A stretch of 64,000 nt of DNA from Bolinopsis microptera. Taxonomy: Eukaryota > Ctenophora > Tentaculata > Lobata > Bolinopsidae. The first letter of the stretch is position 1, and each line of letters opens with the position of its first letter. Below are positions 8,242 through 40,997 of the stretch, piece after piece. Both the position numbers and the translations under genes were made by a program. The notes beneath the pieces are model-generated. The model was given only the letters and a program-made list of their open reading frames with translations, did not search any database and was not told the DNA's origin. Location of the stretch: positions 18,181,669 through 18,245,668 of the forward strand of contig NC_087072.1 in NCBI RefSeq assembly GCF_026151205.1. Reading direction: 5' to 3'.

Positions 8242-8286
8242 CGTAAAAAGCTGGCCGCTCAAAGCCCCAGAGGCCAGCTTTTTACG
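8242..8286. repeat. Perfect 15-bp stem hairpin
   Basis: CGTAAAAAGCTGGCC is followed by 15 bases and then its exact inverse, GGCCAGCTTTTTACG. No gene is close by. It may be a transposon relic or a structured transcript element. Confidence 0.8.
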
Positions 8287-8302
8287 TCTGCAATATGATA
8301 GT

Positions 8303-8376
8303 CTAACACGTGATCCTATACCCAATAACACGTGATCCTATACCCAATAACACGTGATCCTATACCCAATAACACG
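8303..8376. repeat. 22-bp tandem repeat carrying CACGTG
   Basis: Just over three copies of the unit AACACGTGATCCTATACCC (plus AAT) are followed by a diverged fourth. Each copy contains the palindrome CACGTG, an E-box core. Confidence 0.85.
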
Positions 8377-10900: not shown

Positions 10901-11075
10901 TACTCGGCAACTCGGTAATGTAGCTACGCACGGTTAAGGCTCGGTTAAGGCTCGGTTAAGGCACGGTTAAGGCACGGTTAAGGCACGGTTAAAGCACAGT
11001 TAACCGTGCCTTAACTGTGCTTTAACCGTGCCTTAACCGTGCCTTAACCGTGCGTAGCTACATTACCGAATTGCC
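10901..11075. mobile_element. Palindromic foldback element with 8-bp TSD
   Basis: The whole element is an inverted repeat. It begins TACTCGGCAACTCGGTAATG and ends with the inverse, CATTACCGAATTGCC. The arms consist of the 11-bp unit CGGTTAAGGCA in one orientation and then the other. GAGTAAAA flanks both sides (10893-10900 and 11076-11083). It has no coding capacity. Its outer sequence is related to the element at 44671-45145. Confidence 0.85.
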
Positions 11076-11083
11076 GAGTAAAA

Positions 11084-14000
11084 ACTAAAAAGGGTAACGA
11101 TGCATTTTATTTGTGAATTACCTAATATCACACGTATAGTGATAATTATTTGATTTACGTAGTGATCACAGAGTATCGTTGAGTGATTATCTACTTACTC
11201 TATTCTAGGTCTAATCATTTACATATTACATAATTACATAATTAGTGATAATGATGAATATAATAATTAAGAACCGTGCTACTTTCAGTGGGAAGTGAGC
11301 GCTGTGGAGACTTTTCTCAATCAGAACATTTAAAATGTCAGTCGTGTGAAGTAATAGACTTTGCTGTCTGCATTCGATATCAGTTTTAGTTACCTGTTCT
11401 GATCGTCATCAGTTGTCGCTGTCTGTTTTCAGTATATATAATTATCTAGTCTATAATTCATCTGTACTGTCCGAACTGTGCAATGTATATCCAATGTCAG
11501 TTGTCAGTGCGACATATAGTTAGTGACTTGCAGGCCTGTATTTAATTCGTCGTCTACGTTTTCCTCAATTTTGAAATTGTTGAAAAATTTAGAAAGTCTA
11601 CTCTGTTTCCATGTTCTGCTCTAATTTTCGTCAAGATTTCCAAATTTTGATCCAAAAAACAATACACTTTCTAGCTGACATTCCTGGCTTGGAGATATCA
11701 GTTTATAGCAGTTCAGGTCTCAGGTCTCTCCAATTACAGAAATTTGGTAACAATTATCGGCCATGTTATTAAATTTTCGCCTCCGTGAATGGAATTTTAA
11801 GTATGGACCATGTTTATGTTTAATGCCAAGACTGGTTTAACCTTGTTAATTTTTAGCCCTGAAATTCAAAACTTGATTTAAATTACCAGGACGGTATTCA
11901 ACAGAGGAGATTGGAATGTTGAACTTCTCAAATTTGTCATCATGATCTGTGTTCCTACTCGCTGTACTATTGTACCCTTGCAACCGACAATCCGTTGCAC
12001 GCTATTGTATTTTAGTTCTATCTGAATGCCGTCCCGTACTTTCGTCTGCTCTAATATTCACTCCTGCCTACTGCCTAGTGCTCTAAATTATGCATCATAT
12101 GCTCATGTTGAGTATCCGATAATGATTGTGCCCTACATTCTATGTATAGCATGTATTTTGGGCACCGATTATATGTGCTCGCCCAATATGAATAAATACT
12201 TGCTCGACTTTGTACGCTAACCACCTTGTTAAGCGCCGTTATATTGATTCACCAGAACGTTAATTAACATAATTAACGCAAATTAACATAACTAAAACTC
12301 GTTTAAACAGAAAACCAGCTGCAAACAATTTGTCAAAAATCGAGATCAATTGAAACGGAGACAAAACAGCTGCGAAGAGTGACAATTGGAATTAATCAAG
12401 TTTGCTAAATTAACAACGACATTCCTCCGGCCACAACACCACGCACACTGGATCCATTATCATATAATTTAAGAAGTTATTAGTGCAAACATATGATCCA
12501 TTTTGTAAATACAATAGGATAATACGAGCCGTACAGTTCATTAGTCAGACCAGACCTGGCCCACTTGTGTTCACGACTAAGCAAACAAAACAGACGTAAC
12601 GAGGCCCCCTTCTTAGCTGCCAGGTAGTTAGTTCTCCGTGAAAATGAATATCAATTATCGGCTCAACTGTTATATATAGGCAAACTTGTGTTGTTTAACG
12701 AGAAATTAATCACGAGAAATTTGTGCAACAGACGGAATTACGCGGTTGACGTGTACTGTCAAGTATGATTCCTGAGAAATCGGTTTTGTAATTAATTGGT
12801 CTACGTTTTAGCATGTTTAAGATGTTTCTTGCATCTTGATTATTTAAGGTCGGGCTTTAGATTGAAAACAAACATGTAGAACAAGTTGATACTTGATCAC
12901 ATAATAATATGTAAGGAAAAGTTGATCACATGATATGTATTCTTTGAACATATTTCTTTAACATTTTTTAATGCAACAACAAAATGTTTGGTTTACTGCA
13001 GTTCAGAGATTGTATTCATGCAGATTGCAGAATATAAAATGAAGACTTTTTGTAAGTATACCGTTTATATAGTAAGTTTATATAGTAAGTAATACTTATA
13101 TTACTATTTAGTAATATCAATACCTATAATGTCAGTGGAACAGCATTTTAAATGCTAAAAATAGTGAAATAACGGCTCAACAAAGATATTGTTCTTTTAT
13201 CATGATGTTCGATCTTTAGCAACTTCTCAGAGGACCAATAATTTTGGCGAATATTAAACGGTCTAAAACCCCGCCCCCGGTTAACGGAGTGTTGCGATTG
13301 GTTTCCAGATAGAATCGCACGAACGACTGTCTACAATTTGCGACGTACGGTGAACGGTAATATCTGATCAGTTAAGTGGTGGCAAACCATGATACACAGT
13401 TCGGAACAGCTCGGAACAACCAATTCGAACAAAAATGTTGTCGCATATTTCTACCTTTGTAAATTGATGGACGATTCTCAGTGGTAGTCTGATTGTAGGA
13501 CTTCCGTCACCATATTGGCGGCCCTAACCGGTGCTGATAAAAGGTTCAGTAATTAAACATTTCAATTCGCACTACTCTGTGACCTATAAACGATAACCCT
13601 ATCATGTAAATGGGGACCCTTCGGTGTCCAGGAATACTACATCAGCTAACGAGCACCAGGAATGAGCTGGAATGGATTACGGAGGTGACGAGATCATGAA
13701 AGGTTTGCACTATTAGCGGAAGTTTTGTGGAATTCAGGTCTAGTGTAACGATGAACCTATCTCTCTTTGGTTACTTTATTATCACATACTTACGGCAAAT
13801 TATATTTCAAGGTGCCAGACCGAGTTATAAAGATTTAGCGGAAACAAAATTATCGTCCGTTTCTTTGAGTTCTGTCCTATCGGCTATGGATGTTCGGGCC
13901 CTTATAATTCGCTCGGATTAACTTTTTGTAACCAAACAGGAAACTATATCCGATCGTTTAGTTATACTTATTGACGATATCAGTTACATTGTAAAAGATG

Positions 14001-14495
14001 CAATTGTTGATACGATATGTTTAATGTTTTTACTTTTTAGATGATTGTCCATTTTTGTCTTGTTACTTTGAGAGGTGGTAGGGGTGGTCAAACATATAAT
14101 TGGTATGATATTTTGTGGGCGATGAGGCTGGATACCACGGTCATTTATCATGGAATGATTATTATCAGAATTCAGAATACGCTGTTATTGTTCCTCTGAT
14201 TCTGTAGAACTTTTACAGTTCACACCTTGACATGTGTGCCTTACTTTTCATTCGATTAAAACTCTGCAAACTTAATGCTTTTTTGGATGTTGTGCAGCAA
14301 ATTTCGAAAATTTGTTTATTTAACGAATTCGGTTGAGTCGAATATCATGCACCACTATTATATTGTACAAAATATCACTCATTCAAACTGCTAATGATAT
14401 ATTAAAAATTAAAATTAGATTATCATTACCCAAGTACGTAGTAACTATATTCAAAGTTTGAGATTCATTGCCGCATTAAAATCGTTGTGATGACA
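11084..14495. other. Upstream region of the pseudokinase gene; no exon identified
   Basis: The sequence is AT-rich. A GC-richer patch near 13270-13520 has a CCGCCCC box and an inverted CCAAT (ATTGG), so it could be an alternative promoter. A 64-codon frame at 13727-13921 shows no recognised domain. I could not find an exon encoding a signal peptide or ectodomain for the downstream gene. Confidence 0.45.
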
Positions 14496-14528
14496 TGACG
14501 TCAATTGAGATGTAGTAAGATATAAATA
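14496..14528 (+). promoter_or_regulatory. Putative core promoter: CRE plus TATA box
   Basis: A perfect CRE palindrome TGACGTCA (14496-14503) lies 17 bases upstream of TATAAATA (14521-14528). The first coding exon begins about 250 bases downstream. The arrangement suits a CREB/AP-1-responsive core promoter for the pseudokinase gene. A transcript start near 14550 would give a leader with several upstream ATGs. This is motif evidence only. Confidence 0.4.
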
Positions 14529-14774
14529 ACTCAAACATCCCCTCGCCCAGGTCAGGATGATGTTAGAAAGGTGTACAATGACTCACAAGTGATCCACACA
14601 CCCAAGTCCCCTATGATCGTCATTACCCTCTAGTCAGACAACCTAATCCTTGAACTTCAAACTCGTGCTGCACTTCCAGCCTCCTTCTACTTGTCGCTAC
14701 TCAATAAAAGAGACAAGGGTTCTGGGATTGAACACTACTGGATCAGTTTCATTGTCTCGTTGTCACTGTGAGAT

Positions 14775-14878
14775 ATGGCGGATACCACACTGGTAGTGAT
14801 TATATCCGTGTCTGTGGCGGTGATCCTCTTAGCCATTGGCCTGGGACTCTGTCTTTGTAGAGCGTACGGTGTCTTCGG
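14775..14878 (+). CDS. Pseudokinase exon 1: transmembrane segment
   Basis: Encodes MADTTLVVIISVSVAVILLA and a few more hydrophobic residues ending in CLCRAYGVF, a single-pass helix with a basic inner edge. The donor is GG|GTAAGA, phase 2. The start is either the true initiator (preceded by in-frame TGA at 14769) or the interior of an exon beginning at 14773 after an AG. Confidence 0.75.
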
Positions 14879-17800
14879 GTAAGATTTGTCGCTGTAACAA
14901 TTTGCCAATTGTCATTGATTTGTCTTTGTTATTTGTCACATTCTTGTTTTTTCCGACTTTAGTCAACTTATGTGATTTGTAGCTAGTATGGATGAAAAAA
15001 ATAAATTGCGGTTTTCAGTTGATTGTTTATCATTCAGGGCGTTAGTTTACTTTCGATAAATTCGTTACTTTTCAGGTCCAAAACGAAAACACGGGATATG
15101 TATCTAGATAATGTGACTCTGGAGCTGAAGAAGTCGTTCTTCTCCCTCTCACCAGTTATTAAATCTGGTACTCACTTCGAGTTGATGATAGGATCCAAAC
15201 CTAAACAGAGACTTGAGCTATCTCATATTGATTCTGATGCTGTAAGTTTCTATTTGAGCTCTTATTCACCGGTTATGATAATGTAAGGTTACGGTATGAG
15301 GTTGACAAACAAATTCTTGGTAGAGGAAGAAATGTGGTCTTGAAAAAAACTTAGTAACTTTTTCGCAATAATGTCACAACATTCTTGAAACATTCTACTC
15401 CTCCGCTCATTTCATTACTTGTTCCCAATATATATTTTTATGTATATTGTATAATGTATAATGTATAACCCTGATTAGTTCACATACCAAAAACCCAGGT
15501 GATGATTCTACAGATGAAATCAGACATATCGTCAGTCTCTAAAGAGATCTATCTTAACAGCTTGGAAACTCTGAGAAGACTTGATAAACATGATCATGTG
15601 GCTGCGTTTTATGGGACTTACGACACCCCTTCTGGGGCTTGCTCTGTCATCGAGTTCTCCCAATTTGGTGAGGAAAGCTGTGTTGATTTTGACAAATCTA
15701 TTATCGTTTAAGATGAGGATTATTTTGTACATTTTAGAGTACGAAGATTGAATATTGAATAAGTGTCCTTATCTTAAGCAGTCCAGAGATTGTAGAGTCC
15801 GCTGGGGCTTATTCTTATTCCGTCCGTCCTCCTGAAGATGGAGGAATGTTTAAGCTTTATCTAAGGAGCCACCCCTTACAGCTGTGAGCTGTCCAAACGA
15901 GCCATGTACCTTTTACCGGTATAATTTCTCACTCTTTACTCGATAAGATGTTTTCCGCCTTCCTGGCGTCACAAATTCTAGACGTACTGATTCTGTCAAC
16001 AATTAGCAACTGCTTTGACGGACATTCTGTGAAGAATTATTTGCTTATATGAAAGTATGAAGTTGATCAAATACCGCCAATTTCAGTGCATTTTTGTGCA
16101 ACTACATGGGTTTCTTTGTAACTTAGGTAGGCAAATGAATATACAGCAACGGAAATAAGATATAGTCCGGTTATAGAGGAATTTGTTTCCCTTTGAATCA
16201 ATCAAACTAGATGAATTGTTGTAAATACTGAGATCAAACTATCAATCTACAGGCTATCGTCAAACATGTTGCAAGGCGTCATCTTCAGTGACATAAGCCC
16301 TAAAAATTGTAAAAAGTTAGTAAAACCCAAAATTCCTTTAAAAATCTGGACACTCTTAAAACGGTTATAAAGTTAGAATTAAGATGTTAGGAGTAATGGA
16401 AGGCCAAAAGGATTTATAGTATTAATTCCCAAAGGTTTTAAAGTCTTGAGTAGTTGAATATATTTATGTTCACGGACATCCAAAGTTTTAGGACTAGAAT
16501 TATCAATAATTGACACATTAAAAATTTTGTTAAAATCTTCCCTTTGTCTAAAACCATGATCCAACAAATGTAAACCCAAACTATATTCATCACTTGTTTC
16601 ATCTACCTTATCACCATTTAAAAGTTTATAATATTTGACCCTATGTTCTCCAGTCCTAACCCGTAGAGATCGAGTTGTGCGGCCGACGTAAGCCTTTCCA
16701 CAGACACTACATTGGAACAGATAAATGATGTTGTAGCTCTGGCAGTTTCCAGGGGAAGCTTTAACCTTCTTGCCGTTCACTTTGAATTCACGGGTGCCTT
16801 TGACAAGTTCACAACATTTGCATCTTGGCACATTGCATTTGCTGGTTGGGCCATGTTGAGCTCCTAAAGCAAGTTCTTTCAATTTGACGAGGCGAGATTT
16901 TAGGCTTGGCCCTGTTTTCTTTGTGTAACTGAAAATTGTCTTCCTAGGTGTGGCGGATGTTGAGGAGGTCTCTTGGGATGTTTCAGCAGTGTCACTTTCA
17001 CTGAAACTCCTCGTTCTTGAGAGGTGTTCTTCATACTTCTTGGTCACAGACACCAGATCATCATCACTACCATAAGTAGATATGACCCTGATTGGAAGAT
17101 GTAATGATGTCTGGTCATCAGGAGCCTGAACTTTGCGTGACAGTGATCTTGCTGTGTTAAGGACCTTATTACTGATGTTCTCAATCATTTTTCTAGGGTA
17201 ACATGCGGCAAGGAAGGCTTTTTTAAGGTTGTTGAGATGTTCTTTCAGGCGTTCTTGGCAGTTGATGATCCTTCTGAGTCTAAGGCATTGAGAGTACACG
17301 ATACCGGAATAGATATGGTTAGGGTGGGAGCTTTTAAAATGTAGATATGAACGAGAGTCTGTTGGCTTTATGAACAAATCCGTTTGGAGGGATCCTAAGG
17401 AATCGAAGGTGAACATTATGTCAAGGAAAGATACGTATTTACCAGGATCTTCTATTTGGTATTCTTCAATGATTAGGCCATGGGAGAGGAGTGCTTTGTT
17501 AACATCTGCAATCCAAATTTTGAACTCATCTGTAGTTCCCTCAAACAAACCTGCTCCGTCGTCAATGTAACGACTGGCTGATACGATCTTATTCATGAGC
17601 TCTGGGTTACTATAAACACATTTGTTCATTAGGTAGTAGACTGCTATGTTTGCGATTTGGACACATAGTGATCCACCCGTAGGGATACCGACGAGTTGTA
17701 TGAACCAATTTTGATCGAACACCAGGCTCAATTCCACCAATTTGATGAGCCATTTGCAGAAATCTTCAGACCAATCTTCTCTGCATGATGACATAGCGGA

Positions 17801-20800
17801 ATTCAGGGCCTCTATGACGAGGGGTGGTGTTAGAGAATCATAGAGGGCCTTAAAGTCGTAGGTAAATGATCTGAAGCCTTTCTTCTGTACTAGGGAATGT
17901 TCACTATCCACGAAATCCAACCATTGAAGGGCATCAGTGCTATCAGTCAAAAGGTCAGAGCAGAAATCTTTTTCAAGATCCTTCAGGTATTGGCTAGCAA
18001 GGAAAACATCACTGCGTTTTGTGATCCCATCCTGGAGTGCCGTGATGAGCCTGAAGGGGGGTTCGACTCCTGGTTTAAGGTCTTCCTTTTGAAGCTTGTG
18101 GATCTTTAGGGTGGGGTAGAAATAAGCTTTACCAGGTTTGAAGTGGGAAGAAGTACTCTTGTTGTTAGTAACTGTACCATCACTGTTTAGATTGTTGGTA
18201 ATACCCATGATGTCTTTAGCTTCTTTTGGTGTAACAAAGTTTTTCTTTTTTCCCTCGATCCATAAATCAAATAGTTCCTGGTGTAGGTCTTGCGTAGGGT
18301 CTTTAGCGAGCTTTTTATACAATAGGGGGTTGTCGAGCTTTTCCTGTGTTCTTCGCTTTAGCATAGCTGGGTCCACTAGTAACACGGCTCCACCTTTGTC
18401 AGCTGCAACTATTGCAAGTTTTTCATGTTTGATCATTCTTTCTAACCATTTGAGGCCACGGGACTCCATCTTGTTGAGGTTTTTTGGCTGTAGATTAGTT
18501 TTAGGTCCTCTAATGAGTTGCTGATCTAAGTCCGCTGCCATGGTGTTTGTAATCTCATTGATGGATTGGTCCTCACTTGGGGGCTTTCTTCCGTAGTACT
18601 TCCTTGATAGTTGTGGAGGTAGTCCAGTTGGGGCGGTCTGTTCCAAATCAAGCGTTGATATGTCCTCACATGATGTTGTAGGTGAGCTGTTGAGGCTTCT
18701 TGTTGAGGCAGTTACGATTCTGTTTATTGTTAAGCGCATGTCCAGACGAGCCTCCTCCGTGTCAACCTTTGGGGTTGGTACAAAACCTAGCCCTTTGTTC
18801 AAATTGCTATCGCTTCAAGTGGAATTTCTTCTCCCACATCCACTAGTACCACGACACTTCCTTCGTCTAAGGCCTTTCGAGCTTCTTTTTCTATTCTTCG
18901 GTGTCTTTGGTTCTCACGTCTTTTATAGTTTTTGTCTTTTCGGTCACTCAAAACTCTAAGTATATCCGAAGTCTTGCGTGGCCAATGGTCCCACTTCTCT
19001 TTCTCTTGGAGTTTGTAGAAACTGATTTTCTTGTCAAAATGCTTTCTCAAGGTGGTCCGTTCCTTTAGTGGCATGGGGGTTTGGTCCGATTCTTCTGAGT
19101 TTACCTGGCTAAGGGATCTGACCTCATTGAGCTTGTTCTTGATAGCATAACCAAGGAGTCTAGTCTCTAATTGAGAAATCCGGTTATAAACTTACTATTT
19201 GAAACGAATTTTTGACGACAATCTGGGCACTTGCCAGTGACTTAAGGTATCCGAAAGTATCAAAACCATATGGACTGGGTAATGATACCATTTAAAGTAC
19301 ATGAATTGTAATACTATTTTGTATATATTTAACTTTGTTTTAAAAATATCTCCGGTACTCACTACTCATCCTTTATCTATTACCCATTATCCACCCTTAG
19401 AAGACCGAAATGTATCATTTAGTTTGACATTGCTCTTTTCACAGGTACCCTAAAGTACTATCTGTCGTACAGTTCCTACAAGACGTTCTACGACTACAGA
19501 GGGTTTAGTGACGATGACGACACTTTCAGCAACATGCGATCTCCAGGTACGTGCTTCAAAACCGACATGAGGATTGTTTTTAATGCATGTCATTTATATA
19601 AAATTAACATATATACCATCTAAGGAGTTATTAGCGAGATTTTTAATCTAACTCAGAGCAGTCGATAGGAAGCTTAAAAAATGAATTGAAGAACCTTTCG
19701 AATAAAATAAATCTCACTCTATGAATAATGAATTTTATTGTTTAGCTGCTTATTCAGTTATGTAAGTTCAATAAATATTGCCATTAATTTATTCGTCACT
19801 CTATTTTTTCTTAGTGACGATTAGTAACTTGTGTCTCTAATCCAAACTTCATCAGAGAGTATAAACTCCTTACAGCGTAAGAGGAACCTGTTTGCGTACC
19901 CCAAGATAGTGATGGAGAGTCGAAAAACCCCACTCTCAGCTCTCACACTGTACTTCCTTATGTGGCAGATATGTCTTGGTAGGTCATTATCTTCAAATTT
20001 TAGGAACTTACCAATGACTGTCAGATGGTTTGCTAATTAGTAATCTGGAATTGATATTTGCGATTAAGACAGATAACTTACTTGCCCCGCTGAAATATCA
20101 CACTTTGAAAAAGTCCGGGGGAATATCTCATTGTAACGTACTTGGCCGACTACCGTGTGTCCATCTGAGCTGTAACTGTCAGATCGATCAATTAGTTAAC
20201 AAATTTACAAGATCGGAACTTGATTTGTCCCAGTTGAGTAATTTAGAGAGACGTATTATTTCAGGAATGGAGTTTTTACATCTACGGAACTACATCCACG
20301 GCAGCCTCTGTTCGTTTAACGTAGGTACATGTCACTGCACATAATCTTAACAAGAAAATGACAGATTGTCAGATATTTGGCGCGGTCTGGGTGGTTTAAG
20401 CCATTAAGATGGTCGGTGATTGTTGTATCTGCCATCTATCATATTCTCGAGTAGGTTGTAATTGTTACTGTCATCAATAGCAGGTAATCTTTAACACAGG
20501 TATTTGTTACGGGGCACCTCAACCTGAAGATCAACTGTTTCTCGTTAGCGTTTGAGGACAAGTACGCTCTCAACGCCATCCCGAGGTTAGCAGTGTACAA
20601 TGTACAGTGTACAATGTATAGTGTGCATTGTTGTGATATGTAGTGAGTTGTTACTCAATATCTGGAATCTCATGTATTATTATTTTCTATCGTTGATCAA
20701 TTAATTTTGATGGATTTATACTTTTCTAGACAGTTTGTGAAAGAAATTCAGATAAACATAATATTTGGACACGTAATAAATTACTTTATCTATCGTTAGT

Positions 20801-23800
20801 GTCTGTGTTATGGGACAAACATTAGATCTAACTACATCCTTATTCCTTCCACGGTGCTTGTTTATTCCGAAAGCCTTGCTACTGTTTCATTTACAATTAC
20901 AACTTGTTCTGGCAGATAATAATCACGTGATGCCTCTTCAAGTTCCTCCTCTGGAACGTTGGAAGCGCTGTGACTTGCTCTTGATGGTCATGTTTTGAAT
21001 TAGGGTTCTCAATCCCAACTCGTCAACTCGTGCCTTCATTTCAAAATCAACCGTTTCCGTCAATTCTTTAGCGCCACATCTTTCTAAAGTGCTGCCAGTA
21101 GAAGCAGAGTAATCCAGGTCAGAAAGGTGCTCACACTCAAATAGATCATTATTTAAATGGTGCAGATCTGGTCCTTCATGATGTGTACAAGGGACGGTAA
21201 GATCGGTACTTTTGATAATTGTGTCCTTATTTTCTGGTGAAAGCCTTAAAGTGGCAGAAACCCGAACGTTCGGATGGTCTTCTTCTAAAGCAGTATCCGT
21301 ATTATCTCCTTCGCCATCTCCTCGAGAAAATCCATCAATTTGTGAAATATGAAATATCCTGCCCATTAACTTGATGGGAGGGCTCATGAACTATTTTTGA
21401 GACGAGATAACGCCACGATGTCCACAAATGTGTCGTCAGTTTTCCATAGAGGCCACTGTAAAATATAGGATTCAGAACAATGTTTATCGGAATAACAAGC
21501 AACGAAAAAATCTCTAAAATAATGGGCCCAGGTTTTTCAGTGGTAAACTGAAAATAAATCATGGTCACGATGAAAGACATCCAACTGACAGCCTGGGTTC
21601 CGATTATCAGGAAAACTTTGACCCCCAGAGATGCAATACTCTGATCTGGCATGTTCCCACCAGCCTCAGCATCCCTCCTTCTTGAGATGAACTTGCTGTG
21701 CATGATCTTAGCGTATGTTGTTATCAAGATGAAAAATAGGATGAGAAGGGTATAATAGTGCAGTAGGCCACTTTATACAAAAAGTAAGAATCTTGAGTTT
21801 TGAAAACGTTGCACTGTTACCATAGTATCCGATCTCCAAAAGATCAAATATGTTTTTATTGGAGGTAATGTTATTTAGATTTCATTCATTCATTAGGGTA
21901 ATGACTACTTTTGGGGACTTGGGGAATTGCGTCAACGATTTTACCCCGAGTCCCCATGATTTTTAGTCCCCATTAGTCCCCAAAAGTCTCCATTAGTCCC
22001 CATTTAGATGATTTTTAGACCCCATTAGTCCCCAAAAGTCTCTATTAGTCCCCATTTAGATTTATCCTACTCTTATCTTGGACAAAACATCTCGATCGTA
22101 TCGTTATTAAACTAACTTGAAAACCATAAATAACTGTCAAAAATTCTGGGACTTATGGGGACAAATGGTGAATTACGTCAACGAGTTGACCTCTAGTCCC
22201 CATGATTTTTAGTCCCCATTAGTCCCCAAAAGTCTCCATTGGTAGTCATTACCCCCCCCCCCCCCCCCCCCGGTGGAACACGACAATAGTTCCCGAGACA
22301 AAAATAATTGTTGAATGTTTGATTTCAATAACAGTTCTTGTACAGATAAGACATCTGACCAGACTCATAAAAGTGATAGTTAGAAGAGAACCATGGGAAG
22401 CAACCGAAAATATTGAGCCAAGTATCGGGCAGAAGATGCTGGATATCCAATCTTGATCAAATAAGCAGTAATCTCCTTTGATCTCCAGCACTATGGATGC
22501 TAGAGTGATTGAGCAAATGTAGATTCCCATGAGACTGTCAAAAAAGAAGACTTGGAGACAGAGTATTCTGTCATTCTTTCCAGCATGCGACTCGGGGATT
22601 TTCTTAAAACACTGTGTCCCGACAACCAAATTCAGAACGAGCATTTTAACCCCAGAAAAAGCAGTCATAATGTAAATCACTCTTTAATGGATGAAATGGC
22701 CCCATTGGTACAAGTCTGAAACTCATCCAGTCCATTCGAGCAGTCGATGATGTTGTCACAGATCTTGTTGGGAGGAATCCATTTGACAGTTGTTGTATTA
22801 TTGGGGGAACTACTATTACATGATATATTGTAAAACTTTAAAGCAGTCTGAGAGTCTTTAGCGCTTTATTTTGCATCACAATGCAAAATGTTGCAGCGTA
22901 ATTGACATAAGAACAAAGTAACTTACGAACGAGGCATGTCCCTCCCCTATCTTGTCCATTTAATTATGGCAAATCTTGATATGAAAACAATCATATCAAT
23001 ATCGAATAGATATTATAGATGTTAGATGTTATAACGGAATGAATTAATCTTTACGCCTTTTTTTTCTTTTCCGTCCCTGCCCAACTCTCTTTCTGCATCT
23101 GCCTTTCCAGTCCTCTCTCTTAACTACACTGAAATATTCTCTATAATACAAAAAGATTCTTAGATGCTAACGATATGATATCTCATTTGTATGGCGAATA
23201 TACTTATGTGATATTGGTATTACAGCGACAGACTTAACCAGAATTAAATGAAAAAATCTTTAAAAAGAAAACAAACAAGTTTTAAAAAGTGACTTTAAAC
23301 ATATCGTTTTTGTCTGTATTTTCCAAATCTGAAGTCATCTGCCTGGAATATTCATAAACGGTTTTAAGTGGTGCCCAACCATAATAAGCACTCATTTTAG
23401 AAAAATGACCCTAAATGCCTCGCAACCCATTCCCAAGCAACAAAAACCCAAAATATACACCACGCAGGTGGATGGCTCCAGAAGTTTTTGTGACGAAGAC
23501 TCTGACAAAGCAGGCTGATGTTTGGTCCTTTGGGGTGACAATGTGGGAACTCTTCAACTGCGGGGCTATTCCTTATAACCGTAAGTTTAGCATGTGATGG
23601 AATGATTTTTAATATTTAGGCCATATTAGGTTCTAGTTATAATCAAAGTTGTCCAAATTTGATCAAATTTCACATTCATAGATTTTTAAATTTCGCGAAT
23701 TTCGCAGCAGTTTATAATCTTTCGTGTTACCGTCAGGGGTTCAGGAAGCGGGGGGGGGGGGGCGACTGTCCCCCATGAAATCTGGGAAAGGGGAGAAAAG

Positions 23801-26800
23801 GGGCCAAATTTTTTGCCTCATTTGGCCCCTTTGCTAAGAAAATAATACATTTTTGACACATTTAAAGATATTTCTCACATTACTGTGTAGTTTTACCATC
23901 TGCAGTTAAGATTTCTGTGATGTAGTTAGACCATCTGCAGCGAAGGGGCAAAAAGGGGACAACTTTTTTGCCTTATCCGGCCCCTTTGTTAATTGTTTAG
24001 GAAATACAAAAATTTTGACATTTTAAAAGATATTTCTCAGATAACTTTGTAATTTTACCACTGGCAGCTTCGTTACCTGCAGTGAAGTTTGGCCATTTGC
24101 AGCTAATGGGCGAAATGGCCCCTTTTCGAAGAAAATCATTCCTAATCCTACACCCAGCTGGTTACCGTGTGTTAATCCTAATCATATAACAAGAGGTTCC
24201 AGGTAGTTTTAACAGTACGATTATATTGTTACAATTTTTATAACATTTTAGGATTAATACACATTCATACGTCAGCAAACTCAAAGACCCATATGTTATA
24301 CAATCTTAAGCAACAAAAGGATGAGCTGATCACCGAGCATTTCTGAAAGCGCGCCCTTAATATAAGAGGGACACCATTTACTCGAAAATTTATCTAAACA
24401 CGAATCTTCCGTCTTTTTTTGTAACGATAAAACCATTCTAGTGCATTAAAGCTATGGACATTCATAAATGCACCATCCTTTTTGCGGTAATATCGATAAT
24501 TTTGAGGACTTTGGTGCATTACCCAGACAGCAAGGCTGTATTAATTGCCGGTAAACTTTGCACTACTTTGAGTGCCGGTTGAGATAACAGTTCTGCCCTA
24601 CTTTCAATTTGGCGCATTCTAATGAGAGAATGAGGGAAATATCACCTTTGCTCATTGGATACAATATACATGTTGCCTTACTTGCATATTATATTATCAT
24701 GGTTAAGGGTGTAGTCCGTGTAGCCCGTTATTATAATACTGATATCTGGATATTATCCGGTTGGAAGAGACAAGGACAATTGTGAAACAAGGAAGTTAGG
24801 AGTAAGGGCAAATTTTCGGCGTCAACGCCATCTTCAGGCTAAAATTGTTATAAATGTTAGTATATAATAAATGCTTCTATACTAGTTAAAATGCTAAATT
24901 AAAATTACACACACTGAATACAGGTTACATCAAATGGTATTGTACATTACATTGAAAATAGTGATGTACACACGTTTTACACTCTGTCCAAGTACATAAT
25001 ATCTACTGAACAGCAGGGTCGTGTGCTATTTGTTTAAATTTGTCTTTGAATATGTTGTAAAAGAAATCCCTTAAGCTTCTCGCACTCTTCTTTGTTATTG
25101 ATACTAGGTTTAAATAAATTAATGTAGTAAGCTTCTGTCACTTTACGTTTAATGGTGCTATATAAGTTAATTTCTAAAATATCGAAGGAAATATCTGGTT
25201 CTATGTTATCGTGAAACTCTGAATAATGAGCAGCCAACGCATTTTCAGGATAGGTTAAAGGCCTGTTGACTGCTCTTCGATGCTCTGAAAATCTATCGTG
25301 TGCTGTTCTACTCTACTGTGATATCCAGATATCAGTATTTCAATCATGAGACTAATAAACAGCGAACTACTCCGTTATTTGTTATTATAATAGTCCATCA
25401 GTTCAACAGTTCTGTGATCTGGTGTATAATATGATTGATAATTCAGCGTTTTTCAAACCTACATTCATGTCGTAGATATTACTTGAATATTATCTTACTT
25501 GATCTAAAGTTATAACAGGTTGAACCACCTGGCTGCTCAAACGGCTCCATCCTGACCTGTTCTCACAGTTACACCATTCTGCTAAATTCATGTTTCATCC
25601 CCTCGTTTCCCTCAAATATTATATCTCATATTTCTGAGACAAAAGCTTTCACATTTTAGCGGCTTCACTCCCGTGTGTTTCTAAGACTTACTGCTATTGT
25701 TTTTGTGAAAGCTTTGTCGTCACAACACATCTTTACTCTTTGCTCAAATCTCAATATGCACATCCAAGTCTCGTTGATGAAATTAGGCTTATTAATTGTT
25801 CGAACTGTTTCACTTGTTGTTCAGTACCTGTCAAGCGTTGGAAGCTTGTTAGATTGTCTCTTGACAACTTATCAGAGCTAACAGGACAGCTAATACACTG
25901 CACAGCGTCCTTGTAATGTCTGTAAGCTCTGCAATTAGTTGTGCTCTATGGGTTGTTGCGGCCTGTAATCCTTTATTCTCCTCCTCCACCTTTGAGAGCT
26001 GTTTCTTTTTATGAGATGGTAGGTATAAGCTGGTTGATAAGTTTTACTTGTTGGTATAAAGTTTGTACGCGGGCCTCATTACCTTTGTACTTTGCGCTCA
26101 GTTTTCTTTGATTTTTAAAGGACCGTGAAATCTATCATCACTCAGCTCCTCAAATCACGCTCCGTCTGAACTCTGATAGTGATTTGCTGATAAAATTGTC
26201 AGCGTTCTGAGAATATTTACTACCTGGCTGCAGAGTATAAGCTAGAGTCGTTTCAAGAAGTTTATAGTCACAGAATTCTGCAGATTTTAATGAACTTTTC
26301 TGTTAAACTGTCTAACTAATATGTATTACTTATTATGTATTACTTATTATGTATTACTTAATATGTATTACTTATTATGTATTACTTACTATGTAATATG
26401 TATCAATTACTAATATTTATTACTTTTACGGAAGTCAGTTCGGTCATTACTGCCGACGGCTCAGTCCGCACCGAACTCGTCGTTCAAAGCTGTTTGTGAA
26501 TTCTATTACATTTTATTTTATATAGTTCGTTTTCTTTCCACCTGCTAGTGCTACTATTGGTTGATAATTTGTAGACTTCGGCTTGACTGTTGTGATTTGA
26601 GTTATTCAGTATTTAATTTTGTGAACAAGTTACTTCAGGTTGATGCAAAAAATTGTGCTGTTTTAAATTCTCTTCCATACACAGATAAGGATTCTGATTT
26701 CCAATAATGCACGATTTCTTATAAGCTTCAATCCTTGTACAACCTAGCAGCTGAACCGGGTGTATAAAACAGAACTAGGTTGCCAACTGCCAAGTATTAA

Positions 26801-29800
26801 ACCGCTCTCAACTAAATACTGAGACATAGTTGCATATATCGCCCAAGTCAATTAGCGATCGCATAATTAAAAAGGGAGCATGTGCAGCATATATTCAATC
26901 TGACTTTTTAAAGTGTGGAAAAGCCTTTATATACATACTCATTGGATACTAAGGATACAAATAAGTAAACTTACCAGATTTTCGATATCTAAAATCCTAG
27001 ATTATGTAGAGGATCAACGATCCATCGCAAAGCAGTCCAATTCTTTATAACATCACCCCTTATTATAATAATATGCTACTTAACTCTTATAAGTACTCAA
27101 AGAGCGACTGGTGGCTTATTTTCCTGCCGTTAAACTGGAAGATCGAATCTCACAATCCTCATTTGGTATAATAAGAGGGGGTTTATAACAAATGTTTCTT
27201 GAGATATTGAGCTGATATATTTGACGTTTTACATTTAACTCATTCCCACTGCTCTTGTGAACGCCCACCCAGCCATCTTGGTAAGGGACCACATATTACA
27301 TAAGCCCGATTTGTACCTTTTCAAACCCCCCTCCCCTTCCCTTCCGTAATCCACTTAATTACACCTCACATCTATTGTGTTGAAATTACGATATTTTCCA
27401 AATCCCCTCCCCCTAGACTAGCTAGGGGGACCCCTATTCCCTAACCTAGTCTTGGAGCGCTGTATATTATTTCTACATATTACGAGTAAACACTAAACAT
27501 CCATATATTATATTACCCCGATACTATACAATATACACTATATATTATATAGTATCCTCTGTTATAGAGGGGGGGGGAGGGGTCTGTTATACATTACCAT
27601 CCATTTACCATAACTCTCGAATAATAAAATGCCACCTTTCTTTACATTTTCCCGGACAACAGTTTTGGTGAAACTGGTTGAAAAGCATTATCTACTTTGC
27701 ACTATACTATGTAGTACTATACTAGGTAGGTACTACCTGATAACACCGGCTAGCTTTCACGTAGTAGGAACTGTCAGGGCTGTTCCGTACACGTGCTCCG
27801 ATAACTGGAGTTTAGTGTGGACACCTCTAACAATATCGATAGCCGTCATACCATGCTGGATAATAATATAAAGTATATTGACATCTGTTATCTTGTACTG
27901 TGTTATACTACTGTGTTTAACAACACAAACTCTTATTAGCTTCTCATAGCTGCATCGTCCCCCTGCAGCTCCTTTATAATAATTCTCATTTCCTTGCATT
28001 TCTGGAGGTGCTGAAATGATAAACTGTTGATTGGTCGTTGTCGACTATCTAGTAATCTAGTAATTGTGCACTGTAACATATTATAGTTATACCGACCAAC
28101 TGAAATCTTGGAATTCTTTTCCGTAACTTTAATTAGCATCTCTCGACACGATGAAAGTGTCAGACGTCAGTGTTAGTAACCTGTTAGTAACCTGTTAGTA
28201 ACCTGTCCCCTCATCTCTAGATCTGACAGTAGATGAGGTGGTGAACCAGACCAGAACAGGGCAGTACAAGTTAACACCACCACCCGGTGATACGAGTGTA
28301 GCTCGGCTCTTCAGCGAGTGCTTCAACCTTTATCCCCACCACAGACCTTCTTTCAGTCAGGTAAGAGTGCTTTTATAACTCCGCCTCCAATGTATCCTCC
28401 CACGTACCCCACGCCCACTGAAGGTTACTGAGATAAAAGGAACATTGATATAACAGGTTGCCTTTGGTAATTGTTAGAACACTCGGTCCCCTGTATAAGA
28501 TTACAAGGGTCCAATTCGTGGCCCCTCCGTTTAGTGTTAAAATGTTATCGTTCGTCAAAATGACTGTCGCTGATAACTGATTTTATAATTACCCCTCTTC
28601 TCTGGTAATTGAGAGCACGATTTCGGAGGGTGTAATATCTTCATGGAATTGGCCGCGTTCGTGTCCAAAGTTCATTATCAAGTCATTTCCTTAGTTGTTG
28701 TCTTTCCTGAAAACAACGTTAACTTTACGTTAACTTTACGTTCACTTTAGATCCGGTTAGTGCTCGAACGTCTTCTTGAAGGATCCGAGGTCGCGCTGAC
28801 TAACAAGTTTATTGATAGCAGACGTCTTCAATACGCAAACACAGAGCTTTTAGACAAGATATTCTTCGACCAACAAGGTAAAGTGAACAGAGTTGGTGCA
28901 AAACTTCGGAGACTTGCCACCCCTCAATAATTGAATAATTCATCTCACGACTTTAGATCCAAGATCTTTAATTCAAGATACGGAGTTACGCCTGAGCCCA
29001 ATCCTAAGCGTAATTCTAATTTCTATCATCAACCCTAAGAGAATTCGGTCCAAGTGTCGTAAGATGAAATTCCTTTAACTAACAGAATTGTCTGATTTTA
29101 CTGTAAAGCGGAAATTATTTTCATACGAAGAGAATTAGCTTACAGCTTTACGTTACGGTTTTAAACAGCAAGAAGTCTTGTTAATTCTAGTAAGCTCATT
29201 AAAATCGTTCGCTTGACAACAAAATATAATTACCTCAGTTCGCTTAATCTCATTTGCTGTACAATCTTGATTTCAGTACATTTGTCATTCAATACCCGTG
29301 TAATTGCATTATTTTAAGTAAATCAGGTATAATTGAGCTCCCAAATACTGAAGCAAACTCTAATTACTGCTTTAATGGTTCTCTATTTTGTTTTCTCTTC
29401 AATCTCCATAGAGTTAAAGTAATCCAACTCCCAACTGTTGCTGCAAACCCTTATTCTAGTAGTTGTTATTTAATTGTGTGCCCCCTCATTTAGAAGTGGA
29501 CGTGGCAAGAGAAGAGCACGCACAGAGACCCCTCTATTTTACCTTGCCAGGAGGAGGAGGTGAACTGTCAGGTACCCCCGTTAGAACTGGCTCAATATCC
29601 CGTATCCCCATCACCTTGACACGAGATACATCTCCACAACAAGGTGACAGCTCCTTGCCTCGTGGGGATGTCACCTACGCTGATCCTCTCGACTTCCAGA
29701 ATGGTTAGTTGCGGATGTTGAAATGATGAGGACATACATTGTTCTTTCAAATCGATCTGTCCTGTATTACCTGATTTGTCGCGTGAAGGGGTTCAAATCA

Positions 29801-30992
29801 TGGTTAACATTAATAAAACTCCAGGCACAGGAACTGGACGAAACACCGGAGCTACAATGGACCTGTTGAGTACCAGCTCAGCTGAATTTGATGATCTGAG
29901 TACGACAGAGAGTGACTATGACAGAGAGTATAATAACTTAGAATCAGGACTACTCCCTCCCCAACCTACCCGTCCCAAGTAAGTCCACCGTTCTCTCATT
30001 TTGTTGAGTCGACCACTGTTGGGGCGGCGCCCTACTGAACCACATTTGGTTTAGATCTTGATAGGTGACAGCAAACAGTTGCTTACATCAGCAGACAAAT
30101 TATACCAGCTGTCAAAACGAGTACTTTGTGAGACTGAGAACTAGGTTTTATTGGTGCCTTATCGAACTGTTAATACCGACTGCAGTCAAGTCAACTATTC
30201 GTTCTTTTCGTTGTATCGACTTGAGATGCTCATACTAGGTTTGCTAGGATTAACTAAATGTCAGAGTCACTCTGAGTAAATTATTAAGCAACTAATCTAT
30301 GTCTAACTGTGACCCAATATTGAGCTAATTCGGGTCAACCCGTCAGCTTAGGTAATTTCTACCCTTTTTACCCAGGATATATTTAATTTGTTCTGTGTTT
30401 TAGGAAAGGAAAGCGAGGGAAGGCTCGTGAAGAGGCGACTTACACTAACACTGAACAAATGCCTGACAAGACAGACAAGATTGACAGACTGGACCCCAAC
30501 AACAAACTCTACTCACTCCCACACAAACAGAACCACTCTTCTGACAAACAAATTAGCAAGGACATCGACAAAATCAAGACTTTATCCCTGAACCGACCTC
30601 CACCTCAGGGCCCCAAATTATTCCAGTCCGGTGTTTTTCTGGGAGAGGATTCCATTCATCGGTTGAGTAGTATCAATCGTAATAACAGTCTCAACCCATT
30701 TTTAACTGAGGGTATCTTTCTCGAGGAAATGTATGAAAACGCTCCTAATCTGCCCAGTCGACAAAATGAACAAATTGTAATACAAACAGACAAACGGCCA
30801 GACGGACAAACTGACAAACCGGATGTTAGAAACCAGATATCAGAGGGAACTTCAGATTCTGACTCTTCTACCTTTAGTAGCTCATTTACATACACTTCCA
30901 GTTCAAATAACATCAACTCTAGTGAGCGATCCTTCTCCAGATCAAATTTTGATTCTAAAGACACCAACGATTCGAAACTGAACCAATTTTAG
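14775..30992 (+). CDS. Membrane-anchored tyrosine-kinase-like pseudokinase, 13 exons, 710 aa
   Basis: The thirteen exons below join with matching phases to exactly 2133 nt. A transmembrane helix (residues about 6-28) follows only a few N-terminal residues. A receptor-tyrosine-kinase-type kinase fold (about 45-370) and a long low-complexity tail come next. The C-lobe landmarks RWMAPE (269-274), DVWSFG (286-291) and RPSF (348-351) are clear. Catalytic residues are lost: VAIK reads VMILQM (91-96), HRD reads HGS (233-235) and DFG reads CFS (253-255), and the glycine loop and activation loop are degenerate. ATP-dependent phosphotransfer is therefore unlikely and a scaffold or allosteric role is inferred. 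The first ATG follows an in-frame TGA, but an acceptor-like AG just before it leaves open an unseen upstream ectodomain exon. The lack of an ectodomain recalls STYK1/NOK in layout only. Confidence 0.85.
15076..15241 (+). CDS. Pseudokinase exon 2: juxtamembrane and N-lobe start
   Basis: The acceptor TTTTCAG and the donor GTAAGTTT bound an exon of phase 2 in, phase 0 out. It holds the juxtamembrane SKTKTRDMYLDNVTLE and the degenerate nucleotide loop KSGTHFELMIG, which lacks the GxGxxG pattern. Confidence 0.85.
15499..15667 (+). CDS. Pseudokinase exon 3: VAIK-equivalent, helix C, hinge
   Basis: Starts with VMILQMKSD in place of the VAIK lysine strand, continues through helix C (KEIYLNSLETLRRLDKHDHV) to strand 4-5 (AAFYGTY) and the hinge CSVIEFSQF. 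Phase 0 in, phase 1 out. Confidence 0.85.
16245..19260 (-). mobile_element. Penelope-like element 1 in pseudokinase intron 3
   Basis: Almost the whole 3.8-kb intron is one Penelope-like element lying antisense to the host gene. The downstream end contains GCGTCATCTTCAG (16276), a motif also present in the remnant at 24.8 kb. Exact ends and target duplication were not resolved, and no hammerhead core was seen. Confidence 0.75.
16379..19190 (-). CDS. PLE-1 polyprotein: reverse transcriptase plus C-terminal GIY-YIG nuclease
   Basis: An 807-codon frame (16379-18802) is preceded by a second frame (18799 to about 19190) that supplies the N-terminus. They are offset by one base at the AATTTGAAC junction, so the ancestral protein was about 930 residues. 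RT motifs are seen: A FTYDFKALYDSL, B GIPTGGSLCVQ, C SRYIDDGAGL. The C-terminus has a Cys cluster (CNVPRCKCCEL) and then GIY-YIG (IIYLFQC...AYVGRTTRSLRVRTGEHR). This is the canonical RT-then-nuclease order of Penelope/Poseidon-type elements. Apart from the one frame break it looks recent. Confidence 0.88.
19445..19546 (+). CDS. Pseudokinase exon 4: hinge and insert
   Basis: Continues the hinge as GTLKYYLSYSS, equivalent to the 'GdLktfLr' region of receptor tyrosine kinases, followed by an acidic kinase-insert segment (SDDDDTFSN). The intron before it is 3.8 kb because it contains an antisense Penelope-like element. Phase 1 in and out. Confidence 0.85.
19856..19978 (+). CDS. Pseudokinase exon 5: insert and helix E
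   Basis: Encodes the rest of the kinase insert and the helix leading to the catalytic loop (LTLYFLMWQICLG). Phase 1 in and out. Using the next AG acceptor would bring in a stop, so 19856 is preferred. Confidence 0.82.
20265..20320 (+). CDS. Pseudokinase exon 6: catalytic loop without HRD
   Basis: Encodes MEFLHLRNYIHGSLCSFN. The aligned HRDLAARN signature is IHGSLCSFN: the catalytic Asp and Arg are absent, while the loop Asn is kept. Phase 1 in, phase 0 out, donor GTAGGT. Confidence 0.85.
20500..20585 (+). CDS. Pseudokinase exon 7: DFG-equivalent CFS and short activation loop
   Basis: Encodes VFVTGHLNLKINCFSLAFED and then KYALNAIP. The magnesium-binding DFG is replaced by CFS. The loop up to APE is shorter than usual and lacks the paired activation-loop tyrosines. 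Phase 0 in, phase 2 out. Confidence 0.85.
20938..21387 (-). pseudogene. Receptor relic: cytoplasmic tail
   Basis: An acidic Ser/Thr-rich frame of about 149 codons starts within the last 50 bases of the TM7 frame but in another register. It ends in a basic KSKSQRFQRSRGGT. Its composition suits a GPCR tail; a single-base shift would join it to helix 8. Confidence 0.5.
21335..21772 (-). pseudogene. Receptor relic: TM5 to TM7
   Basis: TM5 (LLHYYTLLILFFILITTYAK), a basic third loop (KFISRRRDAEAGG), TM6 (VFLIIGTQAVSWMSFIV) and TM7 with the NPxxY motif as NPIFY, then SWRYLVSKIV of helix 8. Confidence 0.78.
21771..21869 (-). pseudogene. Receptor relic: extracellular loop 2
   Basis: Encodes NIFDLLEIGYYGNSATFSKL, which resembles the loop-2 'YYG' region of LGR/relaxin receptors. 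It is out of frame by one base with the TM5 segment that follows. Confidence 0.6.
21896..22271. mobile_element. MITE inserted in TM4 of the receptor relic
   Basis: The ends GGGTAATGACTAC (21896) and GTAGTCATTACCC (22242) are inverted copies, each followed inward by CTTTTGGGGA-type sequence. Internally the 10-bp block AGTCCCCATT and its variants repeat, in two larger copies (about 21910-22060 and 22150-22240). A 20-bp poly-C tract lies at the right edge. The target duplication is not clear. Confidence 0.65.
22268..22680 (-). pseudogene. Receptor relic: TM1 to partial TM4
   Basis: TM1 (IYIMTAFSGVKMLVLNLVVG), TM2 with LMGIYICSITLASIV, the LGR-like loop KGDYCLFDQDW, TM3 ending in LVRCL at the DRY position, and the start of TM4 (IIFVSGTIVVFH), which runs into a poly-G tract and the inserted MITE. 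Confidence 0.78.
22677..22865 (-). pseudogene. Receptor relic: LDLa segment
   Basis: Encodes ISCNSSSPNN followed by WIPPNKICDNIIDCSNGLDE and FQTC. The calcium-binding LDLa signature CD..DC..G.DE..C is complete. The first one or two cysteines would lie in an upstream exon. The frame ends at TGA (22677-22679) just before TM1. Confidence 0.75.
23468..23580 (+). CDS. Pseudokinase exon 8: APE to helix F-G
   Basis: Encodes RWMAPEVFVTKTLTKQ, then ADVWSFGVTMWELFNCG and IPYN, the best-conserved part of the domain. The acceptor is CACGCAG|G and the donor GTAAGT. Phase 2 in, phase 1 out. The 2.9-kb intron before it contains the antisense receptor relic. Confidence 0.92.
23745..24125. repeat. Two diverged ~170-bp tandem units
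   Basis: Two successive blocks share GGGGCAAAAAGGGG-like sequence, GGCCCCTTTG, a TTTAAAGATATTTCTCA or TTTTAAAAGATATTTCTC core and an ACCATCTGCAG motif. A poly-G run lies at the left edge. It is intronic (intron 8) and probably a decayed repeat element. Confidence 0.6.
24738..25340 (-). mobile_element. Penelope-like remnant flanked by 19-bp inverted repeats
   Basis: A minus-strand frame (25034-25237) encodes LYSTIKRKVTEAYYINLFKP and SINNKEE, which resembles the C-terminus of GIY-YIG domains in Penelope-like elements. The downstream GCGTCAACGCCATCTTCAGG parallels PLE-1. AATACTGATATCTGGATAT (near 24736) and its inverse (near 25320) bracket the piece. It lies in intron 8 of the pseudokinase gene. 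Confidence 0.6.
26318..26404. repeat. 14-bp tandem repeat (ATGTATTACTTATT)n
   Basis: About five to six copies of a 14-bp AT-rich unit with small variations, inside intron 8. Confidence 0.85.
28167..28206 (+). repeat. Triplicated branch-point-like 13-mer upstream of exon 9
   Basis: Three copies of TGTTAGTAACC lie 15-55 bases upstream of the exon 9 acceptor. TAGTAAC resembles a branch-point sequence, so the array may affect splice choice. Any functional effect is inference. Confidence 0.6.
28221..28360 (+). CDS. Pseudokinase exon 9: C-lobe end
   Basis: Encodes HLTVDEVVNQTRTGQYKL, then FSECFNLYPHHRPSFSQ, matching helices G-I of tyrosine kinases including the conserved RPSF. The acceptor follows three tandem TAGTAAC-containing repeats. 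Phase 1 in, phase 0 out. Confidence 0.9.
28751..28877 (+). CDS. Pseudokinase exon 10: end of kinase fold, start of tail
   Basis: Encodes IRLVLERLLEGSEVALTNKF, which closes the last kinase helix, and then a tail segment. Phase 0 in, phase 1 out. Confidence 0.82.
29494..29703 (+). CDS. Pseudokinase exon 11: tail
   Basis: Low-complexity tail with a Gly-rich patch (LPGGGGELSG) and TYADPLDF. Phase 1 in and out. Confidence 0.78.
29831..29978 (+). CDS. Pseudokinase exon 12: acidic Ser/Thr/Tyr tail
   Basis: Contains DDLSTTESDYDREYNNLESG; Tyr499 lies in Y-N-N, a Y-x-N motif of the kind bound by Grb2-type SH2 domains. An alternative acceptor six bases upstream (29825) keeps the frame. Phase 1 in, phase 2 out. 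Confidence 0.78.
30404..30992 (+). CDS. Pseudokinase exon 13: long Ser-rich C-terminus and stop
   Basis: Basic KKGKRGKAR, then polar low-complexity sequence ending ...DSKLNQF and TAG. Tyr528 (YTNT) and Tyr625 (YENA) are two more Y-x-N motifs. The final third is Ser/Asn-rich and probably disordered. Confidence 0.8.
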
Positions 30993-31396
30993 TCCCGTGT
31001 TCCCCAAACTTCGAGCATCATAATATTGTAAAATTATCACTGTGTGTGACGTGTCTGCCCTTACTTTATTACCTGGCTTTGTGCCACCAAGAAAAGTAAG
31101 GACCACTCATCTGTATATCCTGGAGTATTGGAATTAGATTGAATATCGTCTGTGTTTATCATTCTAATCTAGACAGCAGCGTTTGCAATTTTGTCATGTA
31201 TAGTTTTTCTGCTTGTAACTTTTTAATTCCATTTGAAGTCTTACTACATAAAACATGGTCATGAAGTACTGGCGCGGCAAAGCTAGATTACTCACAATTC
31301 TTTAAAAAATGGATCAAACAATCAGCAAATCTACAACTAACCAATCCCTAATGACCGACCTAGTAGGCGCACACGAACTTTTCAAAAGAATCTCCC

Positions 31397-31402
31397 AATA
31401 AA
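31397..31402 (+). terminator. Candidate polyadenylation signal of the pseudokinase gene
   Basis: AATAAA about 400 bases after the stop at 30990-30992 and before the next gene. No other strong signal was seen in this gap. Confidence 0.4.
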
Positions 31403-31730
31403 CGCCCTAGGCTGTAGGGCAGGCCAGGAGGAGACGCTCAAAGACACCCCGACTAACTGCACGTCGAGACCCAGCTTCCTAAAACAGTGCCAGACTGCCA
31501 TTTAAATGTTCATTAGATGTGCTCCAATGGAGACGCAGTGTGCATGTGAGGTGTGGTTGTGTGTGTGTGTCCAGAAGTAAAACTACACAGTTATACTTGT
31601 TGATATGTTGTGCTGTGCTGCTATCGGTGGTAGTACAACGGTTTCTTCTAGAAATGATATCTCGTATTGTGAGAAGAAAACTGAAGGGTCTCTCTGTCTC
31701 ATCATTTTGTTTCGCCGCAGAGTTATTAAG

Positions 31731-31835
31731 ATGAGACGTGTGTCCAGTCTGAACGACCTGATGAACTTCAGGCAAGCCCTTCAAATCAGACCTCCTGGCA
31801 GTTTGGATCGCCCTAACTCTGTTCTCTTTAATGAG
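31731..31835 (+). CDS. Adaptor-like gene exon 1
   Basis: Encodes MRRVSSLNDLMNFRQALQIR and 15 more residues. The acceptor CGCCGCAG at 31720 precedes ATG by 10 bases; the donor is GAG|GTATAT, phase 0. Confidence 0.65.
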
Positions 31836-34273: not shown

Positions 34274-34473
34274 CATCGACTTTAAGTTTAACTGAGGTAA
34301 CGTTACCTGACTACGTGGCGTCACCAGATAGTATAACTATGAAGTCATCAAATAGTATGACGTCACCAGATAGTATGATATCACCAAATAGTATGACGTC
34401 ATCAGTAACAGACTCGGTTTTTGTTACATCACCTGATTTTCCTTGTCATTGGGACTGTGCTCCCAGAACGTGA
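34217..34473 (+). CDS. Shifted continuation of exon 5
   Basis: From about 34219 the next frame reads EETDYEDVDNEETSLTQ and continues to TGA at 34471 through a repeated six-residue pattern around SPDSM/SPNSM/SSNSM and a DYVASP motif. One missing base in GAGGAGAAGAA would account for it. The same DNA looks like an 18-bp minisatellite with repeated TGACGTCA-type cores. Confidence 0.6.
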
Positions 34474-35470: not shown

Positions 35471-35473
35471 CTC

Positions 35474-36783: not shown

Positions 36784-36789
36784 TTATAG

Positions 36790-38040: not shown

Positions 38041-38047
38041 AGTTTAC

Positions 38048-40813: not shown

Positions 40814-40997
<184 letters not shown>

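Follow-up and report, generated by a model that had tools for sequence, protein, structure and literature searches.

Receptor pseudokinases that lack an ectodomain are poorly understood, and a locus in the comb jelly Bolinopsis microptera raises the question of what such a protein could do at the membrane when its catalytic motifs have been replaced as well. The gene in question lies on the + strand at positions 14775-30992 of a 64,000 nucleotide stretch of contig NC_087072.1 (assembly GCF_026151205.1, positions 18,181,669-18,245,668), referred to here as the window, in whose coordinates features are given. A first-pass annotation had described it as a membrane pseudokinase of 13 phase-matched exons, in which the VAIK, HRD and DFG motifs are all replaced and only a few residues remain outside the membrane. 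From its sequence, this ctenophore locus is a genuine gene, and its predicted product is a membrane protein with a single pass, in which the VAIK lysine, the glutamate of helix αC, the HRD and DFG aspartates and the glycine loop have been lost together while the residues of the fold have stayed. By analogy with better known pseudokinases, we lean towards the view that the product would be a membrane scaffold phosphorylated in trans, and a partner of an active tyrosine kinase, rather than an enzyme.

Rebuilding the gene from the sequence gives 13 exons separated by 12 introns, all of which have GT-AG boundaries and consistent phases. The spliced coding length of 2139 nt corresponds to 712 codons and a stop codon at 30990-30992; the exon structure of the first-pass annotation, with its open frame ending exactly at 30992, is therefore borne out, and just its length of 711 codons, or 710 residues, needs a trivial correction. 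The frame contains a single, terminal stop, against 40 and 61 in the other two spliced frames, and 500 per-exon shuffles of the gene contained a mean of 36.4 stops and a minimum of 24, so the open frame did not arise by chance. Codon-usage scores are above zero in 11 of the 13 exons, barely so in exons 7 and 10, and, being negative in exons 5 and 13, are insufficient on their own to prove every exon.

Pfam recognises kinase families alone in the 712-residue protein, namely PF00069 and PF07714 (E 8.9e-42), the latter found by the profile search that the first-pass annotation had suggested. The PF07714 match covers residues 89-355 and profile positions 29-255 of 258, and is significant over most of the domain. 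Exon 2 (15076-15241) encodes the juxtamembrane and degenerate glycine-loop region; the match starts past the glycine loop, at profile position 29, and that loop is not recognisable. Exon 3 (15499-15667) extends from strand β3 to the hinge, and carries VMIL (residues 91-94) in place of VAIK and Ser111 in place of the αC glutamate. The N-terminal lobe (N-lobe) alignment to the solved structure of PDGFRA, weak at 8.0 bits, sets VMIL under VAVK and Ser111 under the glutamate, and a MAFFT alignment with kinases from the same genome agrees on Ser111, HGS and CFS while placing Val91, rather than Leu94, in the lysine column; in neither is the position occupied by lysine. The end of the hinge and the start of a long insert between subdomains D and E can be assigned by alignment to exon 4 (19445-19546), with the remainder of the insert and helix αE in exon 5 (19856-19978). 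The catalytic loop, HGSLCSFN where HRDLAARN would be expected, is encoded by exon 6 (20265-20320; PF07714 stretch 20201-20323), with HGS (residues 233-235) at 20297-20305, and CFS (residues 253-255, 20536-20544) replaces DFG in exon 7 (20500-20585), ahead of a short activation segment. Alignments to the solved structures of PDGFRA and EGFR likewise place HGS under HRD and CFS under DFG.

The retained residues comprise Asn240 of the catalytic loop, the αF aspartate and three motifs. APE (residues 272-274, within RWMAPE) and DVWSFG (residues 286-291) are encoded by exon 8 (23468-23580; PF07714 stretch 23442-23582, E 1.3e-13), whereas RPSF (residues 348-351), including the arginine of the C-terminal lobe (C-lobe; codon 28343-28345), lies in the C-lobe sequence of exon 9 (28221-28360). 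Both the replacements and the retained motifs listed in the first-pass annotation thus hold in these alignments. Loss of at least one of the VAIK lysine, HRD aspartate and DFG aspartate defines a pseudokinase; here all three are gone, and binding of ATP and magnesium in the usual manner cannot be expected of the predicted fold.

Exon 10 (28751-28877) encodes the final C-lobe helix and the beginning of a C-terminal tail of 316 residues, which contains eight tyrosines and matches no Pfam family. The tail continues through exon 11 (29494-29703), exon 12 (29825-29978) and exon 13 (30404-30992), the last of which includes the stop codon. Three of the eight tyrosines are in a YxN context, a Grb2-type pattern: Tyr501 (EYNNL) in exon 12, and Tyr530 (TYTNT) and Tyr627 (MYENA) in exon 13 (binomial P 0.016, for a motif chosen post hoc). 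This tail is the sole hint of a scaffold role to come from the sequence itself, and a weak one.

At the opposite end of the protein, exon 1 (14775-14878) encodes the start ATG, five residues, a transmembrane helix at approximately residues 6-28 and a cytoplasmic flank containing arginine and lysine. The helix has a Kyte-Doolittle hydropathy of 2.92 over 19 residues, compared to 1.37 for the best window past residue 45, such that, by hydropathy and charge, a single transmembrane helix precedes an intracellular pseudokinase domain; an N-out, C-in insertion is predicted from the five N-terminal residues, the helix and the charged flank that follows it. No ligand-binding ectodomain was found through Pfam analysis of the protein, splice-site scoring or a search of the three + strand frames of 24.8 kb of upstream sequence. 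Transmembrane exons of receptor kinases are usually internal to their genes, and the locus might accordingly encode an ordinary receptor tyrosine pseudokinase, the ectodomain exons of which were missed upstream, with exon 1 or 2 being internal. However, an in-frame TGA (14769-14771) precedes the ATG by a single codon, which means that upstream coding sequence could enter exon 1 only through the AG at 14771-14772 (exon start 14773, reading GAG), the sole AG between the two. This acceptor scores -6.2, below all 12 real acceptors of the gene (-1.8 to 9.8, each left out in turn), and its score is equalled or exceeded by 72.5% of the 3752 + strand AGs in the window. Furthermore, with E values of up to 1 allowed, Pfam gave no match in the three + strand frames of positions 1-14775 and, in those of the 10 kb before the window, a single weak match (DUF4806, E 0.21) and no ectodomain family, while the best + strand codon-usage segment between -9000 and 14768 (negative positions being upstream of the window) scores 18.1, below the maximum of 22.8 in the minus-strand control.

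Some observations point the other way. Acceptor-like sites do exist 5' of exon 1, for instance one that would give an exon start at 14551 and scores 7.8; however, such sites are expected before a first coding exon, as a leader added by trans-splicing is common on the mRNAs of ctenophores and was present on 56% of Hormiphora Iso-Seq reads, a figure termed a lower bound in the available text of that study (PMC8527503). A + strand segment at -9211 to -9119 scores 28.1, exceeding the control, although a frame on the minus strand runs opposite it. The codon-usage scan is unable to exclude short exons, given that several real exons score within the noise, and a control Pfam read-through of 19201-29200, which contains six kinase exons, recovered exons 6 and 8 and one additional stretch; the frame scan is therefore able to detect fragments of exons, yet not all of them, and a short or divergent ectodomain exon could escape it. 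An alternative transcript entering at exon 2 with a membrane helix of its own is a further gap. Overall, a missed ectodomain appears rather unlikely and its lack is probably real, in keeping with the few external residues originally reported. The alignments of the motifs, the Pfam results, the in-frame stop and the lack of a recognisable domain upstream all support a membrane pseudokinase that has no ectodomain.

The trans-spliced leader itself could be sought in the genome. The end of the Hormiphora leader followed by GT has four exact matches, all on one strand and all within C13:12811471-12894453, and this cluster, which includes two copies with similar flanks, appears to be the array of spliced-leader genes in Bolinopsis microptera. 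When up to two mismatches are permitted, the leader end occurs at 254 places, compared to 124 for the reversed pattern.

Human receptor tyrosine pseudokinases offer the closest points of comparison. Only one of the eight, STYK1 (or NOK), is described as lacking a real ectodomain in the accessible text of PMC13259870, where it is also said to have no solved structure. Like the ctenophore protein, STYK1/NOK has one transmembrane helix, an intracellular pseudokinase domain and a diminished ectodomain (22 residues, compared to the five found here), and has lost the αC glutamate and the DFG aspartate (PMC13259870). It differs in its length of 422 residues and in keeping the VAIK lysine (VILK), the catalytic aspartate (HKD) and a partial glycine loop (CxGxxG; PMC13259870), all of which are lost from the ctenophore protein with its 316-residue tail. 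The motif set CxGxxG, VILK, HKD and GLG is therefore replaced here by no glycine loop, VMIL, HGS and CFS, and, from these alignments, membership in the STYK1 family fails on motifs. EphB6 has similarly lost the lysine (VAIQ), the αC glutamate (to arginine), the catalytic aspartate (HRS) and the DFG aspartate (RLG), but it retains GxGxxG, possesses an ephrin-binding ectodomain and lacks the catalytic-loop asparagine kept in the ctenophore protein (PMC13259870). The predicted protein thus resembles STYK1/NOK in its anatomy and EphB6 in its motif losses, a combination absent from all eight human proteins as these are described in the available text (PMC13259870).

Two further systems suggest how a dead kinase may be put to use. 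FLOR-1, of the KIN-16 family of Caenorhabditis elegans, is a membrane pseudokinase with several motif losses that is required downstream of the active receptor kinase OLD-1, by which it is likely phosphorylated (PMC10523662). In contrast to the ctenophore protein, FLOR-1 keeps the VAIK lysine and αC glutamate and has lost the catalytic-loop asparagine; there are active members of the same family in its own genome, and the accessible text describes this family as specific to C. elegans (PMC10523662). In HER3 (ErbB3), PI3K is recruited by a tail that an active partner has phosphorylated (PMC13259870), and the role proposed for the ctenophore tail would be a comparable one, although HER3 has a ligand-binding ectodomain, keeps VCIK and DFG, and binds ATP (PMC13259870). 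Residual catalysis by the ctenophore protein looks very unlikely from its residues, which would make the question of scaffold versus weak kinase a cleaner one to test than in HER3 or STYK1. A ctenophore example would also place the origin, or re-origin, of non-catalytic membrane kinases near the base of the animals. No comb-jelly pseudokinase of the ectodomain-free kind was found described in full-text searches of the open-licence literature, judged by their listings, and in the main text of a paper on the holozoan tyrosine kinome (PMC8662651) a search by term turned up neither ctenophores nor Mnemiopsis.

The kinases of the same genome provide a different perspective. A PF07714 search yielded at least 155 matches, with 138 of 510 candidates scored, and the 30 loci with the best matches were read by pattern, a sample that is hence biased towards active kinases. 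The pattern was absent from six loci, and inspection showed five of the other 24 (L044, L052, L063, L064 and L065) to be off target; all 19 on-target kinases, among them L043, which we take to be RYK-like, keep both the catalytic-loop and the DFG aspartate. Among the best-scored candidates, 28 protein matches to the pseudokinase were found, nine being its own exons and 19 lying outside the gene. The best non-self match by E-value is just 32% identical, and is a kinase in which VAVK, HRD and DFG are present along with a membrane-like segment. No close paralogue was found among these candidates, and the idea that the gene is an active paralogue copied and inactivated only recently was rejected on the basis of this identity. 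Elsewhere, C11:1438033-1805645 contains 13 kinase matches, in frames of 368-589 residues on one strand, which fall into clusters at approximately 1.44-1.46 and 1.76-1.81 Mb and represent single-exon kinase genes that have expanded in tandem. That the genome is a ctenophore's is also borne out by an intronless glutamate receptor, for which the best match among solved structures is ML032222a of Mnemiopsis leidyi, followed by PDB 4zdm and then by AMPA receptors of the vertebrate type. A second glutamate receptor matched the vertebrate type best among the 60 matches listed. The ML032222a fragment itself reaches 76% identity at most in this genome, so that M. leidyi is an improbable source. A search for the nuclear receptor domain PF00105 gave no match, but its controls gave none either.

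A scaffold role, the slightly favoured reading and one drawn from the precedents of HER3, FLOR-1, STYK1 and EphB6, would work as follows. The transmembrane helix would hold the pseudokinase in the membrane next to an active tyrosine kinase, for which the dead fold could supply a contact surface; the active partner would then phosphorylate the tail in trans, and the resulting phosphotyrosines, including those of the three YxN motifs, may recruit SH2 adaptors. Several points weigh against it. The gene structure and the motifs are read here from DNA alone, the topology is predicted from hydropathy and charge, and the active partner, the phosphorylation of the tail and the recruitment of adaptors are what we infer. 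Codon-usage scores are negative in exons 5 and 13 and near zero in exons 7 and 10, the N-lobe alignment is weak, as is the post hoc count of YxN motifs, and the splice-site model, built from 12 acceptors of one gene, is small and noisy, giving two of the real sites negative scores, and constitutes evidence rather than proof.

The protein might instead owe its function mostly to the fold, partnering an active kinase in allostery or in trafficking, and the tail sites would then be irrelevant. HER3 activates EGFR through a dimer between the C-lobe of one and the N-lobe of the other, according to the available text of PMC13259870, and the residues retained in the ctenophore protein sit in the C-lobe; yet a tyrosine-bearing tail of 316 residues has been kept open, and we regard this alternative as unlikely. 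Decay of the gene following the loss of catalysis and ectodomain would account for the missing catalytic residues, for the retroelement frame in intron 3 and the pieces resembling a G protein-coupled receptor (GPCR) in intron 7 (both described below), for the lack of coding bias in exons 5 and 13 and for the failure to find a close paralogue among the best-scored candidates. However, 712 codons free of stops and frameshifts and 12 intact introns make it improbable, and the losses have hit catalytic residues and left those of the fold, the opposite of random decay. The HGSL of the catalytic loop also resembles the HG-x-L loops that are common in receptor guanylyl cyclases, of which the fold could be the kinase-homology domain. 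This is extremely unlikely: Pfam found no cyclase domain in the gene or in the three + strand frames of 31001-41000, and the best 60 of 1670 matches to solved structures were all to EGFR, PDGFRA, JAK and FGFR kinases, with no guanylyl cyclase among them; identity as a receptor guanylyl cyclase was rejected on these grounds.

Approximately 740 bp past the stop codon of the pseudokinase, on the same strand, begins a further gene (31731-34473), for which a draft reading of 434 residues joined by eye matches no Pfam family. In this draft model, seven of ten tyrosines are followed by glutamate (binomial P 6e-7, post hoc), and the encoded product looks like a phosphotyrosine docking protein. It is conceivable, though improbable, that the two genes are expressed together as a single unit, their mRNAs being trans-spliced out of a shared transcript, which would pair a dead membrane platform with its phosphotyrosine docking protein. 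Splicing of exon 12 directly to the downstream gene, omitting exon 13, is compatible with the frame by reading, but was rejected as the acceptor at 31722 scores -10.8.

The introns of the pseudokinase gene contain open frames of their own. Intron 3 harbours an 811-residue frame on the minus strand (16379-18814), with a YIDD-type reverse transcriptase motif identified by eye and a GIY-YIG match that falls below the cut-off (E 0.0047); judged by these features, it is a Penelope-like element. Further long frames resembling reverse transcriptases, again read by eye, are present at 41935-43887 (+) and 45738-47684 (-). Intron 7 carries GPCR-like frame pieces on the minus strand (20938-22865), with weak matches to 7tm_1 and LDLa, of 21.5 and 14.4 bits respectively, that both fall short of the curated cut-off; a poly-C tract and repeats break up this frame. 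In the ctenophore Hormiphora, genes nested within introns are reported to be frequent (PMC8527503).

Repeats are also found upstream of the gene. A direct duplication with an offset of approximately 650 bp occupies 5882-7126 (+), its copies being 100% identical over 300 nt (at 5882 and 6532) and over 128 nt (at 6350 and 6999), and a further 124 nt copy is located at 4847. Adjoining this duplication, at approximately 5139-5237, is a tandem array of the 10 bp unit ATTGACATTA. Closer to the gene, 10901-11080 forms an inverted repeat rich in GGCACGGTTAA-type units, comprised of two 81 nt arms that are 94% complementary and lie 18 nt apart.

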